Shown here piece after piece: positions 1,042 to 13,211 of a DNA stretch of 64,000 nt. The translations under genes and the position numbers were made by a program. The DNA comes from Heliocybe sulcata (lineage: Eukaryota > Basidiomycota > Agaricomycetes > Gloeophyllales > Gloeophyllaceae), in assembly GCA_004369045.1 (NCBI GenBank), contig ML213508.1, positions 1,288,976 to 1,352,975 on the forward strand, read 5' to 3'. How positions within the stretch are numbered: the first letter of the stretch is position 1; the number at the start of each line of letters is the position of its first letter. Under the pieces are notes generated by a model, which saw nothing but the letters and a program-made list of their open reading frames with translations, was not told where the DNA came from and ran no database searches.

Positions 1042-1747
1042 TTATGCGACGAGACTATCGGGAAAATCAGCGGGCAAGTTATTATGAACACGGTATGCGT
1101 CGAAGTCAGACTTAAGCATAGCAATGCGGGATTTATCATATGATTTCGAGATGGTGAGGGGGAGGAGATCCTCAAGGCGCCGCCAGTACAGGAGGAAAGC
1201 GAGAGACCTCCAACGGCCCTGGGCCGCAACAGTTTCGGGCAGGACCCCCGCTAAGAGAAGTTCGGTAGCGCCGCCAATATGGAAGCTGTGCCCAGACATG
1301 CGTGACAGTCGCAGCGGGTCCCAGGCCTCCTTGCAGCGGCCAAGGAAGGCCGACTTCGTCATGGGCATCCAGCCCTCATCAGTGGTAGCGTACGCGAAGA
1401 GCGGGGTGTTGTCGGGCATGCGCGAGTTGAGATTGAGGTGGCGGCGCAAGGCGCACACGGGGCAGAGGAGGTTCCGCCCAGTGAGCAAGATGCGAGCACC
1501 CGACTCCTTCTCCACCTTGCCGAATGGTATTGTGAAGAGCGCTGACTCGATGCCGCAGGGGAGAGACTTGAATACGGGCTGAGGGGCCATAGCGACGTGC
1601 CGGCGACGGTCGAAGGCCAAGCGAGAAGGAATGGTCAGTTCGCCAAGGCGACAGCAGCCCCAGAATGCAACAAGTGCAACAGCAAGGACCGCACAGTCTC
1701 TGGGATCGTCCGGGCTAAGGAAGAGCTCCAGTGCCAAGAGGTGCTCC
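1042..1747 (-). pseudogene. DIRS-like tyrosine recombinase, C-terminal part
   Basis: The reading frame shows the catalytic half of a tyrosine recombinase: a GCCRLGEL segment that carries the first catalytic Arg in this class, a SGHSFHIGGAT segment in the H-x-x-R region, and a GRWRSLAFLLYWRR segment with the expected nucleophile Tyr. The RT parts of the same element lie upstream on the same strand, which places it with DIRS-like retrotransposons rather than Cryptons. The upstream part of the gene is at 9580-10444, on the far side of the Plavaka insertion. It is part of a fossil. Confidence 0.75.
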
Positions 1748-1784
1748 ATCAGGAAAACTAATATATCATGTAGTTTAGGACCAT

Positions 1785-1965
1785 TCTACCTTAACTACGG
1801 CACCCTACATAGCTGCGTTGGTTTACCCGGTAGGCTATCGTAGGCGTGGTAGGTCAGAACAGTCTCATCATAGGATATGATAGGTGCTGTAGGAAACCAA
1901 TATACCACTGTATCTACGGTAGACTGTGACAGAACCTACAGACTCTATGGCATTCTCAGTATGTA
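1785..1965. repeat. Left subterminal CCTAC/GTAGG repeat cluster of outer Plavaka element
   Basis: About ten matches to a core like gtaggt or cctaca, some with ATAGG, occur in both orientations within 180 bp. A matching cluster is near the right end. Subterminal arrays of this type are the known transposase or accessory-protein binding sites of CACTA elements; binding here is inferred. Confidence 0.7.
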
Positions 1966-2171
1966 CAGTGCAGCAAATCATTGCCAAGTCAGTCGCGCTA
2001 AGCAGAACATGAAGAGATCAACCCATACATTCAAGTAGAAACCTTTACTCTGCTCCAGGACATTGTCGACACGCCAGCTATCAGGCACTCCCGTCCCGAA
2101 CTTGGGAAATAAATGACAGCTACGTACGATACGATCCAGTGGGATCACTTCTGCATGCGGGAGGTGAGCAT

Positions 2172-3917
2172 CAGGAAAAACCTCCCACCGGGATTTCTGC
2201 TAATTAGGGCTAATGGTCAATTAACCGGGGTAATGGACCTAATCACGAGCTAACAAATACCTTAAATGGGAGGCTCGTCCAGTTCATAGCCAAACAATAC
2301 TACTCTATTGTAGATATGACCAGCACACTCATTCTGAGCTGAAATAGCCCTCTAATGATGGGGCACTTGCTGCAGATGCGATGCGGACTTGGCGAAATCA
2401 GAAACTGGTGTCACGTGACGGAACCGTGGGACGTGCCATTTGTTGATCAATCTTCAATTGAACCTCCGCTGTTCTGCGCTCTGTCTGGCTTCGACACCCC
2501 TCTCCTCTGTGTTCCTGTCCACACAGTTGTCTGCTCGCAGCCCCTCGGTTGTACGTCCTTATTACCATGTACTGTACAAAAGATTCCTGTCTCTTTTACA
2601 GGGCCGAAGACTTGGGACTATTTGCCCATACAGGTTGACGAGACCCGCTGTACGTATTTTCTTGCGAGGCGGAGAGTGTGCGCGCGCTTGGAGAGACCTG
2701 ATACCCAGCAAAGTCTGGCAAACACTGGGTTCCTCCTCCTGACCCATCGAAATTCTCTGAGGTGTGCCATCAGTCCACGTTGCTCCATGAAAACTGCGCC
2801 CTACTAACCCAGTATCTGGGATAACGACATCAGCGCCCTTCAGGGCAGCCCGCGGACCATCTGTCCACACAATACACTCCGTGCTGTTCCCCTATGCCTC
2901 CCCACCCACCGTTACTCCCAGCCCTCCAGCCTCTTCCTCGCAGGCTCCGGACCCTGGTACGCCTCCTTCCCTGGCATTGCCGCGCACACGCTGTGCCCAA
3001 ACCGTGGGAATGACACCAGGATATCATGCTGGATGTGCGGCGACTGGCCGACCCCCGGACCGTCGATGTGCGCAGCAGCGCGAGATCGGGGGCCAATCTT
3101 TGCTTGGCAGAGGGCCGAGGGAGGGTCGAGTCAAATAGGTGCACGTGGTCCTGCAGCGCGAGGAGGTTCGCAAGGACTTGCATGGGGTGTCAAAGGTTGG
3201 AGAGCGCGTTGAGGACAGGGACACACAAAGCAACTGCACCGTACGAGCATCCAATCTTTGTCGATATTGTCCACGCCTGGTTCTTCACTGATGTATGTCC
3301 TTTCATTCTTTTCTTGTCTACGGCTAACAGCTGTCATCATCAGATCTACGCGTCCCTGTCGGACTGGAAGGCCTGCGACAAGAAGGCTCGAAAATTCCCC
3401 GCAGACAACTACGCCAATCAGTACGAGGACAACATGAGTGTCTTGGTGGGCATTCGCCAGCACCACGCGCGTGCATACCATTCGACCATGCACCGGCTCT
3501 ATGTCCGGGCAAGGTAAGTCTGAATGCCCGATGATGTCTGCTCAGTTGGACTGATGTCCTTACGTTCAGAGGCGATTCCATGGCTGCGATGTCAAATCAG
3601 GCGAAGTCTAACATTCCCGCCTTGCTGGACTTGGAGGGAATGAGAGAGGAGTGATTATTACATGATGTGCCATACTATAGACATGTTGTGCTCCGTCTCT
3701 GTCAATCTTTCTTTGCAATGCAATATATACGAGTGTCACAAAATCTCATGGCCCATATGAGCTAATAGCAGTCTAATGGACATCTATTGTCTCAATATTG
3801 CTGAACTAACTCATCTAAATTAGTGGGACCTTGTGGAATAGACCTAACGGGCTAATCCGACAGAATTAGATGTATTCGGACAGAATTAGCCCGAATCCGG
3901 GCGGGAGGTTTTTCCTG
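2172..3917. mobile_element. Internally deleted Plavaka-type element nested in the transposase gene
   Basis: The 1746-bp element has imperfect terminal repeats of about 25 bp. Both ends start CAGGAAAAACCTCCC and continue with a CC-GG-ATT stretch. It is flanked by AT at 2170-2171 and 3918-3919. Subterminal CTAAT/ATTAG motifs crowd both ends (2190-2260 and 3760-3900), a different motif from that of the outer element. It keeps only the end of a DUF6532 gene and no transposase, so it is non-autonomous. It sits in the last exon of the outer transposase; about 20 further codons and a TAG (2120-2122) in frame lie beyond it. Confidence 0.8.
3242..3654 (+). pseudogene. DUF6532 C-terminal fragment in the inner element
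   Basis: Reading TAC GAG CAT at 3242 and removing two GT-AG introns (about 3293-3344 and 3514-3570) gives YEHPIFVDIVHAWFFTD, then IYASLSDWKACDKKARKF, then a His/Arg-rich helix and a stop at 3654. It aligns with the same region of the 6947-9290 gene (YEHPIIQSL..., VECVLDEWATG..., FRKETRQ...). The N-terminal half of the domain is absent or unrecognisable. Function is unknown. Its value is that a second, diverged Plavaka element also holds DUF6532 at the same end and in the same direction. Confidence 0.65.
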
Positions 3918-6756
3918 ATGGATTTCGCGAAGCCCGTGATACACTTAGAAGACCTAGGTGATGGTCGGTCGCGCGAGGTGGCGTGAACCATTCAACGTAT
4001 GCCAGTTGTTGAGCTTGCTGGGGGGCGACACGAAGATGAATCGGCAGCGTGAAGATAACGCGCACCTGGGCAACCAATAGATCTTTGATGTCCATCGTGT
4101 TAACGCTGGTACCGTCCCGCGATACAAGCACCGTATCAGAGTGAGATGGCACTCCCTTGCGTCCCGGTCTCCCTAGTGTGGGTGGAGATGCACGAATGCG
4201 GTCCACCAGCTGAGTATCAAGTGGGAGTACGCACGGTAGCTGGATCTTGACATGCTTGTAGATATCAAACCGGTCCGCGATATTTGGCTCCAGGATGCGT
4301 CGATTGAGCGGGTTGGACTTGCGTAGATACTCCGTCAGTGCCTCGAGGAACTGTGGAGCACTGAAGTCTTTCACGATCGTCGCAACTCTCGTCTGAGGGA
4401 AGCTGGGTTGGCAGGGCAGGATGAGACGGTGATTCCGATCTGACACTGATTGCGACGGCCTGCAGCTGTCTTCGTCGTCTTGATCTGGCATTGTCTCCTC
4501 AGAACTGTAGCAATCTTCGAAGTGCGGGCCGCGTACAGTTGCGCGCCAATCCAAGTAAATCGAGAACTCGTGCACCCATTCCTGACGATCTAACCAGCGC
4601 GTCATCTGCTCTGTATAATCCCGCTTATTTGTCGCATGATATGCTGCCTTGGCGAAGTCGATATGGAGGCACTCGGGCAACTCAGTATTGTACCCATCAG
4701 CCGAACCATGGGACTTGATGGAATCGAGGTAGTGCTGAATGGCATGAAGCTTTGGGAAATTGAAATCGTCACGGACGCCGTACTTGAGGAAGATGTCCTT
4801 ATATTCATGGAACTCGTGAAGTGCAGCTTGGAGCAAGGTTAAGGTGTCGTCGGTGTGAGTATGGAGCTGAGCATAAAATGAGAAGTCTAATAAAGCCCGG
4901 GCGGCTTTCGCAACCGAGGGCTGGACTGCACCGTTCAAGATGCCCACGAGAACTTTCTCCAGCTCCCTAGATTCCGTCCCAGTCCACTGCGAGATACCGG
5001 AGATGCCATTTTTGAAGTGCCGGATGTCCGGATGGTCAGGCATGCAGCTAAACTGAGCGTCGACTTCTTCTGCACCCGCAATACTGACGCACCACGACAG
5101 AAGGTGGTCTTTGATGACACCTTTGTGGACTTGATGTAGAAGGTCGGGCATGAAGCAACGGAAGATGTCGGTATGAGGAAGGTCTGCCCAAAATGGTTTA
5201 TCGACTGGTCGTAAGCCTTCGGCCGAGAATGCCTGGACACGACGCCCCGTTGCCTTATGCTCGAGGATCTTCTTCGTCCGCTGCGGCTTGCGATATTGTA
5301 TACAGTCCAGAAGGTCGCCAAGCTCCTTGGGGTCAACAAGACATTGCAGGCACCGATTCTGCTTGCAACACGCAATCAGACAGCACTCGGGGTGGTCCGC
5401 GACATAGGCTGCCAAGATAGGGAAGACAAGTCGAACCCAGCGGTCAGCACATACCATCTCGACACCTTCGGAACCAGCCTTTATCAATGAAGCCAGTATT
5501 CGGCGCATGCAGAAATGGAAGAGGCGGTAGCCCACAGCTGCCCTGTTGTTCTCAGACACACAGCTGAGTTCCGCAATGGGTAGGTACCCGACTAGGACCA
5601 TGGCGTGTGATGACGGTGAGCGTCTTGTTCCCTTCTCAATATTCCCTATTGTAAGGTACACAGGCCAGGCTTCTTCGTCGCCCCGGTGTTGCGAGAGCTG
5701 TGTCTTGTCGGAGGCCAAGATAACAGGCGCCACTGTAGCCCCGCATGGAAGTTTTGACTTCATAAGAGACAGACTATTAGTAGGTAGCTGCACAATCCTA
5801 TCCTAATCACTCACTCACCTGCATATCCCACCACCAGTCCGCAGTCCACATCTCGTCGTATATCCTTTTTGCCCCTTTCGAATCAGCATACACACGCTCC
5901 GGCACATATGCCAGCTTATTATTGAAAGCCGGGTTCCCGATTAACTCGCGTATGCACTCTACAGGGTCTCTGAACCAGAGCTCGACCTCCTCATCCATCA
6001 ATTTCCCATTCTCGTCAAACTCAGTCCCCGCAATCGTTATCACTTCCTGGGTCCATTTTGCACCTACGGTGGGTAAGGCATCGATCTTGGCGTTCAGTGA
6101 CTGCCTATTCTTGTACGAGGGTCTCATGCGGTTTCGTGTCTAAGTATAGTTTCGATGAGAAAGATCAGATATCGTTCTAACACTTAACTCACTATAGGTA
6201 ACTTCAAGAATTCGTCCATCTGATTCTGTCCCACATTCTGCACCAACCAGCTTGCTAGCTCCCACTCCTCCTTGTCCTCAAAAGGACTCCAGTCAATCTC
6301 TCCTTCGTGCTCCTGCACCTCCCGTATTATGTTGAATTTTGTCTTCTCTTGCCGCAGGACGTCTCCCGCAGCACCTGGGAATGGTTCAACAAACCGTGAA
6401 CCTGGGCGACTATCTTCTTCATTATCTTCGGTGCTTGCACCATGGGAAGGTTCATCCGTGGCGTCGTCGTCAGCAGTTGCTGGTACCTCAGGGTAGGGGG
6501 AGCCAATGGCATTGTCGCAGGGCATCACGGAAGGGCTGCTGAGCAACTCTGGTTCTGGTATATTCTCCCCATGTAAGCTTTCATCTTCACTGTCTGTACT
6601 TCCAGCTTCACTGTTGGTCTCGAGGCCGTAGGCGGTGATGGTGAAGGTCTTGAGTTTTTCGAGGTACTTGCTGAAACATTGCTGTGCCTTCTTGATATGT
6701 TGTTTCAAGCCATTTTTTGTAGGCAAGTGCTTTCCGCAATATCCGCAAGGAGGCAT
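3918..6756 (-). CDS. Plavaka-type transposase (last exon cut by nested element)
   Basis: Three exons: 6756-6193 (188 codons), 6139-5819 (107 codons) and 5787 to the insertion at 3918; all junctions are GT-AG and in phase. The N terminus is a zinc-finger-like start (MPPCGYCGKHLPTKNGLKQH) followed by an acidic, low-complexity stretch. Exon 2 ends WTADWWWDMQ. Exon 3 has the family signatures ILASDKTQLSQHRGDEEAWP and FRCFMPDLLHQVHKGVIKDH, which contain likely catalytic Asp residues, and CLHIDFAKAAYHATNKRDY near the end of the core. No stop interrupts about 918 codons before the insertion. The role would be cutting and joining of the element's ends in the nucleus. Family assignment is from recognised motifs; the exact catalytic triad is inferred. 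Confidence 0.85.
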
Positions 6757-6946
6757 TGTATCGTGCAAAGCAATCGCGAATGCAAGTTGGACGTCCACCC
6801 GGTACACACACCACGCGAACTGTGTGAATTTCGGTCGCAGATGCATTTGCCGGGTCCCGTGTCCCCGAACATTCTGGAAGTCTCCACCAACCGCAGTCAC
6901 GTACGCCCGTTGATTTAACCATCTTCATGTCCTGCAGCTTCCAACC
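6757..6946. promoter_or_regulatory. Divergent promoter between transposase and DUF6532 gene
   Basis: Only 190 bp separate the two start codons, so both genes of the transposon must share this upstream region. No clear TATA box was picked out. Confidence 0.5.
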
Positions 6947-9290
6947 ATGTCTGGCCCCGCAAAACGTCGAACTGAAGTGGAGGCACTGAACGAAGATGCC
7001 GGCGAATCAAGAAACTTAGGCAAAAGGACACATAAACCTTCAGCTAAGCAAGTAGACATACATGAGTTGAATCTACCTTTCTTGTCGATGGATCCTTACA
7101 TGTTTATAGATCGGGATGCAGAAGCGCATATGCTCCAATGAAAAGCCCGCTCTGAGAAGGCAGCACAGCGCCGCCATCAGGCTGTTGAGGAGGAGAATGG
7201 CTTTCAAGACTATCGCGATCTCTGTAAGTCTGATGTATCTCTTGCTTGTAGTGATCTCATATAGATTTCAATACCAAGCACCTGAGTCGGAGGAAGGTTG
7301 CCAGTATAATATTCCGGATAACCAGGAGATGGTACGTGAAAATGCAGAACATTGGGGTCACGGTAAGCTACTAAATATTGTTGTAGTTCAGAGGATCAAA
7401 ACAAGACCACGGCCGAAATCCCGCAAGGCTGGGTGCGGCCCAGCAAAGGAGAATGTCGCTCCAAAGTCTGTTGTCACCCCCGTGAGTAGATTGGACGTTA
7501 CTCGGGTATGCACTGCTTGATACAATACACATTGCTGAAGGCTACACTGACTATGGATGAACAACGAGTTAAGAAGCTCATCTCCCGGACCAGTCACATC
7601 CCTCCTCCCGCAGCCCCTTTACATGACCGAGGTAGGAATGACTCGTTATCACATCGCGTGCATGATAGCGAGCGCATCGGGAAACAACCTCAAAATCTCA
7701 CGAAGCGCATGCCACAAGAGCAACAACAGCAGCAGCCTCTTTTTAATGACCAAGGCAGTGACAACAATGGGTACATAATATGTTTCAGTGCCCCGCGGTA
7801 TCAGTATCTACTCACGATCATAGTTACCATGCTCACCGTGCGTATGACGATCATAACGACGATCAGCAGTTGGGATCAGACCAAGGATATACCGACGGCG
7901 AGGAGGAAGAGCCGCAGCCTCATTATCATCAACGTGCTGGCCACCTCCACTCATCACTGCTACGATCACCATCACCACACCAAGTTTCACAGGCCTGATA
8001 TGCCAGTGAGCCCGATGATTTGTCGTCTTCAAGCCCACCACCTCCCCACGACCATGCCATACAAGACCAAGTTCCCCGCAGTCGCAGTGATCATCCTGCA
8101 CGAGAGAAGATAGGAGCTAGCCACAGGTCAAACGAGAAGCACAAGCATGCTCCGCCGGCGCGATCACCAAGTCCATCTGGAGTTCAGGTACTTAAGGCGC
8201 GGAAACTTACGAATGGTGGTAGTCGCGGTAGGCCACGAGGTAAGGACTGGGACCATGTTACTTGGCAGATCCTCAACGATGCATGGGGCTATTTCCGTGC
8301 TCGACTGAGCACCGAGAACCCTTACCCTGGGCAAGAGGATGAGGATTGGGCTGGTGAAGCATGGGTGAAGGCATGCCAACAGCGAGGAGTTGAGATGGAG
8401 CTGGAGGATGACCTTGCAAAGACGGTATGTACATTCCTCTCTCGTTGTGCGCTCTATCGATGTCAGAACATCCCAGATTATTCAGCGGGGATCGCAAATC
8501 CGAGGCAAGCTCAAAACAGCGGCTGAGCTCCTTGTCCCTCAAGCATATGGCCTTCGTTCAAGCAGTGACGAAGAAGATGTCCGGGCAAACCACGATAAGG
8601 TGGCGAGGTTGACGGGTGATAAGCCATTGTTCTACTACGAAGTACGTTCTCTTTGTGTTGTTGATTCACAATGTTCACAATTGGGTTGAGGATCCGGATA
8701 GGCGCCGCCGAATGTACGAACATCCAATAATCCAAAGTCTTATCAATGTCACATGGTTCGCAAAGAAGAACGACACCGGTGTCCAGTATCCTGAGTACTT
8801 CAAAGGCGGGATCCCTCTTGTTACAGTTGGGCTAGTTTTGACTGCGGTAAGTATGCTCTCTTCTCTTAATCTGATCCTCGGGCTTGATGTATGGTTAGGT
8901 GGAATGTGTCCTGGATGAATGGGCAACCGGTACTCGCAATCGCAAGGATTTCTCTGAGAAGGCATACAAGGAAGTCTTTGAAGGACACTGCAAGCGACTA
9001 GAGCAATTCCGCAAGGAGACACGGCAGCTGCGTGTGTTGAAGCATATTCGCAGCAGCCTTCTTCGTAATGCGCGGTGAGTGTTGCTATGTGCGATTACCA
9101 ATTTCTGTTTCGTGTACTGAGACATACTTTCAGAGAACATGCGGGTGTTCCTCAAGATGAAGGTTCTGGCGGTCTGCCCTTGCTTGACAAGGAGGAGATC
9201 AATGCAGTTCTTGAGGATTGGCAAGGACGAGTAGGAGGTGACTCCGGGCAGTGCTACAGCACTGATTCTGATGGGGCAGATGATGACTGA
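6947..9290 (+). pseudogene. DUF6532-family protein, second gene of the Plavaka element
   Basis: Multi-exon gene starting MSGPAKRRTEVEALNED. The first half is low complexity: basic, Gln-rich, then a long His/Ser/Pro segment (7700-8100). A conserved helical C-terminal domain follows over about 8180-9220, with YEHPIIQSLINVTWFAKK, GGIPLVTVGLVLTA, VECVLDEWATGTRNRKDFS and a basic helix, and then an acidic tail. Introns are clear around 8427, 8643, 8848 and 9074. A TGA at 7139-7141 lies in the opening frame between LQ and KARSEKAAQ, and another stop lies in the His-rich part, so this copy is probably broken. Function is unknown. Its place opposite the transposase suggests a DNA-binding or accessory mobility role (inference). 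Confidence 0.7.
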
Positions 9291-9383
9291 GTAGGATTAC
9301 CATCCGCGTTCCATGTCCAGTCAATCAATCAATAGAGGCCTCTCATATAATACATAGTCTCTGTGGTTCTATAGAGCATCTTG

Positions 9384-9556
9384 GCTACATATGCACTGTA
9401 GGTCGACTCAGGACCTACGCTGGCCTACGATGTAGCACGACTTGCCTACAGTGACCTACAGCGTGTCACGGAGGGCATTTGTTTACCTATGGTGACCTAT
9501 AGAATAGGGGGTAACCAAATCGCCTACAATACCTATGGAGACATAGTAGCCCAACC
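9384..9556. repeat. Right subterminal CCTAC/GTAGG repeat cluster of outer Plavaka element
   Basis: About ten copies of cctaca, cctacg, gtaggt or the variant cctatg are packed into 170 bp, inside the right terminus. They mirror the cluster at 1785-1965. Confidence 0.7.
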
Positions 9557-9579
9557 GAGACAGTTGTCATTTTCCTGAT

Positions 9580-10444
9580 GTCGATCGTCACCGGGGCCCG
9601 CTGCGCACGGTGACAGGAGAGCGGTGCGCGCTTCGATGCCGAGGTCCGGACCAGCGAAACGAAACGGGAGTCACCATGCCAGGGTGCATCGTTCACGTCG
9701 TGCCAGGCGTGGAGGCCGGTCAGCCAGCCAGAGAGGGTGCCGCCTGAGACTGCTCCTGCGTGGTGAGCGACAAAACCGGCCAGTAGGTAGCGGGAGGCCG
9801 GCATACGCGAGGACTCGGGGATCCCTTCACCATCACAGAACTGGTGAAATCTAAGTAGGCCAGCACCATAGGTAGTGAGTGTCGAAGGCTCTAGTGCTGT
9901 GAATAGGAGGTGTTGTACCGCATTCGCGGTTCCCAGCAACAGCTCCAGGCAAAGTCGGGAGTCTAGGCAGATGGAGTGAGGGGATGTCCACGCCCGCAGC
10001 CGATCAACAGCCGCGACGTGAGGACAATAGGGACTGGGGGCAATGTCGCAGTCCGCCCGCGGTTTGCGACCCTTTCGGATACCAGACGAGCGCGGTGGTG
10101 CGAGAACCCCGGGCCGCTCAACAGATCTGCTGGAGGTTGGCGGGGGGCCGCACACCTCGCTGGTAGCCATGACAGAACGTCCTGCCACCTCGCTATGGTG
10201 ACGGAACCTGCAATGACGGACAGTAAGCAAAACATAAACATGGGTCAAGAACATGTCGAGCTCTCTCGGGAGCTTGAAACGCGAGCGCATGCGAGAAACC
10301 GCCGCACCCAGATCTCCGTGCGAGATGCGGTCTGTGGGGTTCTTTTCAGATTCGACATAATCGAGCACTAAAGAGATGTTGCGTGAGGCGAGAACAATGG
10401 CAGCTCGCCTAATCGATAAGTTCACCTCGAAATTGCAACTGCGG
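9580..10444 (-). pseudogene. DIRS-like RNase H tail and N-terminal tyrosine recombinase
   Basis: The minus strand reads NFEVNLSIRRAAIVLAS and NISLVLDYVESEKNPTD, the end of an RNase H domain of DIRS type, then a recombinase core-binding region (EPSTLTTYGAGLLRFHQFC, GGTLSGWLTGLHAWHDV). The frame runs into the Plavaka end at 9577. The upstream part of RNase H lies beyond the LTR-like unit at 10445-11961. Fossil, one of the four main pieces of the element. Confidence 0.75.
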
Positions 10445-11961
10445 TGATACGGCCAATCAGGGTTTAGCGTAGCGCTCCGAAAACACGTTTTAGGGTCGTT
10501 TCGTGATCGCGGCGACGTTGCGACTCTATTGCGCATGCGCTTGCTGCTGGCAGCTCCATGGAAGGCGAGCGACGACTATACTGGCGACCCCGACTATTCA
10601 CTCTGGCGGCGAGCTCGTGACTCTATTCCCCGCAGCACGGCAACACTCTCTCTATTCAGCGGGACTCAATGCAAAACGATCTATTCTAGTCTCAGGAGCT
10701 ATTCTTGGACTCGGCCACAATGATGCGCAGGCTTCGGCGTCCGGATCTTTCCGATCAAGTCAACGGCAACTCAGCACAACACAGCCCGGTCGGTTCTGAG
10801 GAGTCTAGGCCCTCGAGTCATTCTAGAGCGACCATCCCACTCAATGGCCCGCCTGTCGTTCCCATCATTGTCTCTGCCGCCCGTCAGGGCACATGCTCAG
10901 GGCGCCCGTACACATCAATTCACCACCTCCATCATCAGTTTCCGGCTCCCTCCGCGCGACACATCACTCGCCCGACCCACTCCCCCTTTCGGCACAACCG
11001 CGCCCCTCTTCAGCAACCACGCCCGCCACTCAAGTTACTGTGGCACTGCTGCGTCGACGCGAGGTCTCGTACGGTGTGGCGTGAGGACAAGACTCGTCGC
11101 GCGTTTCAAGCTAGGCTACGAGCATACTCAAGCAGGCACCGCGTCGCAAGGAAACGATAGGAGTGGTAGGAGAGTTAGGTACAGGGCGGTTGGGGCGATG
11201 CGCACCTTGTGGACGAGCGCGCGGCACAGGAGATGGTTTGCGGAAGATGGTTTTCTCTTCATGTACGACTGCGAGTAGTGTAGCGGCGACGTTTTGTACT
11301 TAATTCCTTTCTCTTTGTCTCGAAAATACAAGTTATCTTCACCCTTCGTATCTCATTCTTGGTGCAAGAGTTTCCTCTAGAGTATAAGGCCCTCGCCTGC
11401 CTTCCGACTTCATCCAGAGTTTGCGCGAACCTTCTGACAGTGCGCGTGACAAGTAAGCCCTTTGTTTCGAGTTTTTCTTAAGTCCGGCCTCGTGCGCCGT
11501 CCATCTCATTAATCGCGTTCGAGTTGTCTCGAGTTTTAGAAGTGTTGCGCAGCGCACTGACGGCATTGTACGCGTGCCTCGATCGCATTGCGTAGGCGAT
11601 CCCAAATCCGCTCCCTCTGAGACCGTGCGACAAGCGCGCATTCCATGACAGCTCGAGAAGTTATCGTCGCAAGCGCGCACCAAGTGCGTTAGAATCGCAT
11701 CGTCAAGCGGAGTATGATACAAGCAGCTCCCGAAGTGAGCGTATCGAATTGAGACTGCCGCACAACCATGACTGGTCTGCGCCAAACTACCTTTAGCCTC
11801 ACCTATACGTCTTACCCTACCCTATCCCTCCGAACGTTTATCATACCCTTCGTTACCCCGGACCTCGCAGCCATCTAGCACCAAGGGTTTGGTGCTACGC
11901 TTAGTGGTTGTTGTCTCCCCTTTAGGTTTGTGCGGGTCTCATCACGTGTTAGTGCCTTTCA
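10445..11961 (+). mobile_element. LTR-like unit, long form (LTR-A copy 1)
   Basis: The unit begins TGATACGG and ends GTGCCTTTCA, with TG...CA ends and an exact 4-bp flank GCGG on both sides (10441-10444 and 11962-11965). It sits inside the RNase H region of the DIRS-like element. Its 3' 150 bp (from about 11815) is shared by all LTR-like units in the window and includes ggacctcgcagccatctagc. It has no long open frame. It is 1517 bp, read as a solo LTR of an LTR retrotransposon whose internal part is not in the window. Confidence 0.7.
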
Positions 11962-13211
11962 GCGGCCTTTGTCGAAGGCACCGATGATCCCCTGGTTGTC
12001 AGAGTGGACCAGGATCGTGGCATTTTCGATGCCTTGCTCCTCGAGCAGGTAGATGATGAGCTCGACCGCCACACCCTCGAGCCATCCAATGTCCCGGAAA
12101 CAACTGTGCCACCCTGGAGTCATGCGCCAGGCATCCCATCGATCCCCCCAGGTTACGCCAATACCCCAGTCTGTCGAGGCATCAACAAAGATCTGGTGAT
12201 CGACTAATGGGCCTGTGCTGCGAAGGGAGCGGTAGACCCCGACTAGGGCAAGCTGGTTGGCCCACCACTTCAGGTCTGATACCATCGATCGCGGTGGGAA
12301 GCATCTCACCAACCAGTTGTTCTTGAACGAAGCTATGAAATTTGTGAGGTTGGGGAGGCATGAACACCCATCCCAGTATACGAAGGCAATGTGACATAGC
12401 GAGCCCTGCATCTTCATGACTTCTTCGAGCAGACATTGAGCCCTCGAGAACCTCTGAAGAAACACCTGCACCCGACCCAGGAACTTCAGGCACTTCTTCT
12501 CGGGTAGGCATACCGTCTTAGCCTCAATATCCCAGAAGAGACCTAGATACACGGAGCTAGGTGCGAAATCCTGGCCCTTATCCCGGTGCCAAGGAATATG
12601 GAGCGCAGTGATATGATCAAGCGCCATCGCACGATCGTAGGGGTAGGATGGGGAGCTGTTTTCGGTAAGATGTAAGAGGTAACGAAAAGTGACAAGGTCA
12701 TCGACCCACTTCACAGATGGGCCAACGCCCGTAGCCTTCCAGATATCCAACACCGCATTGGCGATTGAACCCGCATTGCTCTCCGAAGAGCAGCAACCAA
12801 AGGGGCAGGTATGATCGATCCAGAAGCCCTCTGTACTCTGGACCACGAACCACCTCTTGTGCAATGGGTGGATCGGGCAGGTACAGTGAAACTTGGCTAT
12901 GTCGAGTGTCATAGCCTGGGTCCCGGGCGGCGCCGTCGAGATCTATATGACTCCCAATGAGTAACTCATTGCACTTGATGGCAAAGACCAGTACGAAGCA
13001 GCCCAAGTGGCTCTCGTAAGAACTAGGCAGTGCCCAAATGGCAACCCGCAAGCAGAACCCGATGGGAACTGCGCAGCACCCAATGGCCGCTAGCCGAATG
13101 GCTTGCTATGGGACTCTAACGTCCAGACACAAAGGAGGCCTCGAACGGCGGAGGACTCACAATCTCAGCCACCTCATGGACCGACCCGAATCTCGTCGGG
13201 AACTTGTCCAT
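11962..13211 (-). pseudogene. DIRS-like reverse transcriptase core and start of RNase H
   Basis: A long frame from about 12912 to the LTR-like unit reads PGTQAMTLDIAKFH, then KWVDDLVTF (the RT DD box), a connection segment, and IFVDASTDWGIGVTWG and ILVHSDNQGIIGAFDKG, which are RNase H motifs with Asp residues. Upstream, 13211-12913 continues the RT palm (MDKFPTRFGSVHEVAEIV). It is bounded on both sides by LTR-like units. Fossil with about one further small break besides the insertions. Confidence 0.75.

Follow-up and report, generated by a model that had tools for sequence, protein, structure and literature searches.

The window analysed here, 64,000 nucleotides of the Heliocybe sulcata genome (C6:1288976-1352975, where C-numbers designate the 51 contigs of the 31.6-Mb assembly), harbours a PlavakaB-type transposable element with two genes, one specifying a Plavaka transposase (PF18759) and the other, head to head with it, a protein with the DUF6532 domain (PF20149). 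The name Plavaka is said to have been introduced by Iyer in 2014. This outer element, which carries a second, nested one, terminates in CATCAGGAAAA at 1747 and in an inverted copy at 9580 (CATCAGG..CCTGATG type) and is flanked by a TC duplication (Table 1). Its borders are fixed by the empty site, since removal in silico of the element and of one TC copy leaves an uninterrupted minus-strand open frame of 565 residues. These ends and flanks replace the CAGG ends with AT flanks that a preliminary description of the window had assigned to the element. The interrupted frame (1042-1746 and 9583-10575, minus strand) resembles a tyrosine recombinase in a motif, judging by eye, and a Pfam scan of part of it returned no match. 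The CATCA..TGATG ends, 2-bp duplication and PF18759 transposase of the outer element agree with the description of PlavakaB, for which 5′-CATCA..TGATG-3′ ends and duplications of 2 or 3 bp are given (Kojima 2025, PMC12730594); the complete elements discussed below were assigned to PlavakaB by these published features of ends, duplication and transposase.

Pfam matches to both families on opposite strands bore out the earlier claim that DUF6532 is divergent from the Plavaka transposase within one element. The start codons lie approximately 100 or 190 bp apart owing to the choice of in-frame ATG for the transposase start, and the 190 bp first reported therefore holds for one transposase ATG and not for the other. 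The DUF6532 domain of the outer element was matched in three frames with E values of 2.3e-5, 2e-9 and 5e-15 (24.8, 38.1 and 56.3 bits), the curated cut-off of PF20149 being 24 bits, a score exceeded by 24 of the 25 matches in the genome. Both genes are broken in the window copy, that for DUF6532 by an in-frame TGA and that for the transposase by the nested element, which sits inside the C-terminal coding part. N-terminal to the domain, the protein of the window copy contains the sequence RGRPRGK, which was considered as an AT-hook; the idea was dropped, as this sequence was not seen by eye in translations from other families. The best match of the DUF6532 alignment to a solved structure (E 0.25) was taken as chance.

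The nested element possesses termini of the same type as the outer one and a different inner sequence. Its DUF6532 side aligned with 656 bp of the complete element C8:1288297-1294638 (80%), as did its opposite end with 86 bp (77%); with six other elements, including the outer one, no match at E 1e-3 was obtained. On the basis of these alignments the nested element is a deletion derivative of a two-gene family other than that of the outer element. The Pfam match of its DUF6532 remnant (E 1.7e-8) upheld the earlier claim that a DUF6532 end lies on the same side and in the same direction as the outer gene, with the borders of the nested element now revised, and this coincidence is ascribed to the common layout of the two families and to insertion in the same orientation. 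No perfect 2-bp duplication was found in its flanks.

To what extent DUF6532 genes reside in such elements was determined across the genome. A PF20149 profile search yielded 25 exon matches representing 14 loci, to which a protein query added one more (C19), and three further protein queries of the genome gave no extra locus; exon matches were grouped by eye into these 15 DUF6532 loci and likewise into the 19 PF18759 loci described below. In the whole genome there are 91 occurrences of the word CATCAGGRAAA, as compared to 18 of its reversed control. A correctly oriented end of this kind was present 462-836 bp downstream of 12 of the 15 DUF6532 loci, with the gene pointing outward, and within 2 kb at 13, where chance would provide one at 0.2-0.3% per locus (0.0017 for 1.2 kb); the corresponding binomial P of ~3e-31 treats the loci as independent, though some are near-copies. 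As the end motif was derived from the window, the count was repeated without the two window loci, whereupon 10 of 13 had an end within 1.2 kb. Two control families had no such end within 2 kb, neither at the 22 loci of DUF6534 nor at the 57 loci of Pkinase_fungal (merged by eye from 114 matches). The preliminary description had expected DUF6532 to be commoner inside element ends than elsewhere, and in this genome that is the case, so that a chance neighbourhood is excluded. Facing CATCAGGRAAAA end pairs, 1.2-4.5 kb apart and without PF18759 or PF20149 between them, probably represent non-autonomous derivatives.

The complementary search with the PF18759 profile gave 39 matches, corresponding to 19 loci, of which 10 have an end on the transposase 3′ side within 6 kb and the remaining nine have none. 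Eight of the 10 end-bearing loci lie in elements that are bounded by two ends and a perfect 2-bp duplication and that carry a divergent DUF6532 gene at the end opposite the transposase (Table 1; the C27 element was read without bases 8001-12999). All eight of these complete transposase-bearing elements have CATCA..TGATG ends, which is partly so by construction, since the elements were found through that end. The ninth locus, C41:70487, aligns at 79% to the C30 element as far as position 3900 of the latter, whose DUF6532 start codon is at 3658, and encodes a similar N-terminus (first exon), the match ending 0.7 kb before the contig end. The tenth, C37:28388, is separated by 22 kb of partly unread and N sequence from a DUF6532 gene that has the expected orientation, and a second end was not found. 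Near the nine other PF18759 loci no DUF6532 match was detected by the PF20149 profile and protein-query searches. The earlier proposal of a second, divergent gene of Plavaka transposons consequently stands for the CATCA-ended lineage and not for these nine loci, and the data support DUF6532 as a regular second gene of CATCA-ended PlavakaB elements in this genome. Two of the nine (C9:797034-805282 and C8:1182733-1186241) belong to a distinct Plavaka-like lineage with a several-kb gap between N- and C-terminal matches and a CATCAGGAAAA word ~6.7 kb upstream. A transposase query of a non-fungal viral contig collection retrieved no relatives.

Table 1. Features of the outer and nested elements, in window positions, and related elements elsewhere in the genome, in contig positions
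Feature	Position	Strand	Basis
Outer PlavakaB-type element, 7834 bp, ends CATCAGGAAAA..TTTTCCTGATG	1747-9580		ends and flanks, empty site
Target site duplication TC, left copy	1745-1746		flank comparison, empty site
Target site duplication TC, right copy	9581-9582		flank comparison, empty site
Transposase, N-terminal open frame, C2H2-like zinc finger	6184-6924	-	weak Pfam zf-C2H2, E 0.005-0.013, below cut-off
Transposase frame, Plavaka profile positions 1-99	5807-6139	-	PF18759, E 2.2e-34
Transposase frame interrupted by nested element, Plavaka profile positions 103-325 plus downstream portion	3921-5802	-	PF18759, E 8.6e-91 on open reading frame 3886-5802
Transposase C-terminal remainder, far side of nested element	1978-2166	-	translation resembles C-termini of other elements, by eye
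DUF6532 gene, divergent from transposase, in-frame TGA at 7139-7141	6947-9290	+	open reading frames, Pfam
DUF6532 domain, four exons (8248-8424, 8477-8641, 8691-8846, 8899-9075)	8248-9075	+	Pfam; intron 8847-8898 shared with other copies
16-nt subterminal repeat (CCTAC/CCTAT type), four copies with 75-100% identity	9412-9545		enrichment tests
Nested non-autonomous element, derived by internal deletion from a two-gene element like C8:1288297	2169-3920		ends, sequence matches
DUF6532 C-terminal remnant in nested element (C6:1292181-1292420)	3206-3445	+	Pfam E 1.7e-8, 35.0 bits, open reading frame 3014-3517
Complete elements, each with its duplication	window TC; C8:1288297 TC; C30 TG; C6:1232343 TT; C41:54891 AA; C5:339403 CA; C5:585985 CA; C27:416-20424 CT		
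Facing CATCAGGRAAAA end pairs	C1:2405965-2407849; C2:292608-296756; C14:662397-666895; C17:61779-63014; C22:76508-77778		

The relationship between the two genes was examined in seven elements, representing seven of the 10 end-bearing transposase loci after omission of C41:54891 (a near-copy of C5:339403) and of C37 and C41:70487 (no full partner). Identities among the seven range from 38-72% for the transposase and from 19-57% for DUF6532, and the two distance matrices correlate with an r of 0.86, a value reached by 3 of 5040 permutations. In both protein trees the groups (C30, C6, C8) and (C5:586, C27) are well supported, and the window and C5:339 elements, which pair with a support of 100/99 in the transposase tree, constitute the closest DUF6532 pair by identity (33%). 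An intron of 46-61 nt (8847-8898 in the window) occupies the same phase-0 site in all 10 DUF6532 copies compared, with GT..AG borders in nine and GG..AG in one. This common intron site and the signals of co-inheritance speak for a single acquisition of DUF6532, which would have preceded the split of the three lineages. The preliminary description had also considered that the two DUF6532 cases of the window might be independent captures at non-homologous positions, a possibility ruled out by the two-gene parent of the nested element, which has the same layout, and by the shared intron site. Constraint was estimated as the ratio of non-synonymous to synonymous substitution rates (dN/dS; Nei-Gojobori method, exons hand-picked from intact stretches), and two of three DUF6532 copy pairs gave low values, 0.15 over 227 codons (C41/C5:339) and 0.068 over 238 codons (C30/C46), as did the transposase in the pairs C5:339/C41 (0.105, 157 codons) and C30/C41:70 (0.055, 222 codons).

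Features that bear on how the DUF6532 protein might act were sought in the element ends and in the protein itself. Short subterminal repeats were above shuffled controls in five of seven complete elements when one mismatch was allowed, two of the five being one family; this was the second of two tests on the same seven elements, with no correction for two tests. The N-terminal tails of DUF6532, taken from assumed start codons, are net basic by 6-10 in four of six genes and by 1-2 in the other two. These repeats and basic tails provide hints only of the mechanism considered below.

Comparable two-gene arrangements have been described in other transposons. Maize Spm/En requires two proteins for its transposition, TNPD and TNPA, the latter of which binds subterminal repeats; the transposases of CACTA elements are conserved, whereas their subterminal binding proteins share little similarity (PMC2613891). 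The elements described here resemble the plant CACTA elements (Spm/En, Tam1, Tgmt*) in the combination of a conserved transposase with a poorly conserved second protein, in the existence of deletion derivatives and, perhaps in part, in their subterminal repeats (PMC2613891). In Spm/En and Tam1, however, both proteins come from one gene region, the second by splicing, whereas DUF6532 is specified by a separate divergent gene. Harbinger/Nuwa elements likewise combine a transposase gene with a separate second protein (Myb/SANT) in one element (PMC12730594), but these belong to another transposase superfamily, and no Myb/SANT match was obtained among the DUF6532 frames scanned. The elements share the ends, 2-bp duplications and Plavaka transposase of the published PlavakaB elements, for which the sections and passages of PMC12730594 that were covered mention no DUF6532-like second gene; nor was such a gene found in the passages on Plavaka searched in other papers. 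In the literature searched, DUF6532 and PF20149 occur in a single paper, a Ganoderma comparison, whose excerpt lists the domain beside unrelated ones in the same sentence as Plavaka.

The residency, orientation, co-inheritance, common gene structure and constraint of DUF6532 described above suggest that it helps the CATCA-ended elements to move or to escape silencing. We consider it most likely (probability roughly 0.6) that DUF6532 is a standing second gene of PlavakaB and specifies an accessory mobility protein working like TNPA. The lower identity of DUF6532 relative to the transposase matches the pattern of CACTA binding proteins and transposases. The parallel concerns the way of working only, and subterminal DNA binding and a part in transposition are here inferred. 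In such a mechanism DUF6532, placed head to head with the transposase, transcribed towards its own element end and inherited together with the transposase through the split of at least three old lineages, would bind family-specific subterminal DNA, and would assist the transposase in recognising or pairing the ends, or else regulate the transposase. A number of observations weigh against this reading. By rank, the two distance matrices correlate at only 0.35, and the window/C5:339 branch is unresolved in the DUF6532 tree, which as drawn splits the pair with a weak support of 69/80. The third DUF6532 pair (C27/C32) has a dN/dS of 0.53 over 279 codons. Exact 7-mer subterminal repeats, in a test that scored 10 of 15 rows and omitted five partial elements, stand out in just one of seven complete elements, that of the window, and C30 and C8 fail the one-mismatch test too. 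No clear end was found at the DUF6532 loci of C37 (C37:54745, beside an N run) and C38 (60 kb, where the only candidate end is diverged and lies 2 kb further along), both of which were retained as misses in the 15-locus counts. Finally, co-inheritance holds for one genome, the present one.

A standing PlavakaB gene could also serve in anti-silencing instead of the transposition reaction, as does VANC of plant VANDAL elements, and we regard this as rather unlikely. Residency and constraint fit such a role equally well, and it was retained as an explanation since TET/JBP-like frames are located between the transposase and DUF6532. The genome contains three Tet_JBP (PF12851) matches, two of which (C5:598326-598517 and C27:3471-3677) lie inside two long DUF6532-bearing elements, on the DUF6532 strand and between both genes, and the third (C37:39237-39428) between the C37 transposase and DUF6532, where the second element end was not found. 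All three are weak and below the Pfam cut-off (E ~2e-5, 23.9-24.2 bits against 34.9), and the shorter elements, which without exception carry DUF6532, gave no match. The three frames may still be related to TET/JBP, as an HxD..H pattern is visible by eye. Some published PlavakaB families carry a TET/JBP gene, for which an escape from methylation has been proposed (PMC12730594).

That DUF6532 was captured once and is carried as passive cargo, without a role in mobility, appears improbable. Capture does occur, as the long elements contain host pieces, namely a host-like 1,3-beta-glucan synthase fragment (E 2.2e-114, open reading frame of 259 residues) in that of C27 and a LIM-domain fragment (E 4e-12, positions 8803-9357) in that of C5:585985, yet DUF6532 is kept in all eight complete transposase-bearing elements, at the same site and in the same orientation throughout, and the low dN/dS of two pairs likewise argues against cargo. 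We attach next to no weight to independent captures from a host gene family or to a chance neighbourhood. The listing of DUF6532 with unrelated domains for Ganoderma genomes would fit a host family, but the position of 13 of the 15 loci just inside element ends, the agreement of the protein distances and the common intron site contradict it; none of the loci was demonstrably a host gene, with C37 and C38 remaining unassigned to elements.

A broader proposal, to which we would give somewhat less than an even chance, is that DUF6532 is at root a transposon gene, specifying an obligate second component of PlavakaB that evolves fast, would recognise the subterminal DNA of each family for end pairing or anti-silencing, and in some lineages may be joined by a TET/JBP-like enzyme in a three-gene element. 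Agaricomycete annotations treat DUF6532 as a family without assigned function, and this uncharacterised domain now gains a concrete context and a job that can be tested. PlavakaB elements become two- or three-gene systems comparable with the plant CACTA elements and, if the proposal is true, the number of DUF6532 genes counted in a mushroom genome may for the most part reflect transposon copy number.

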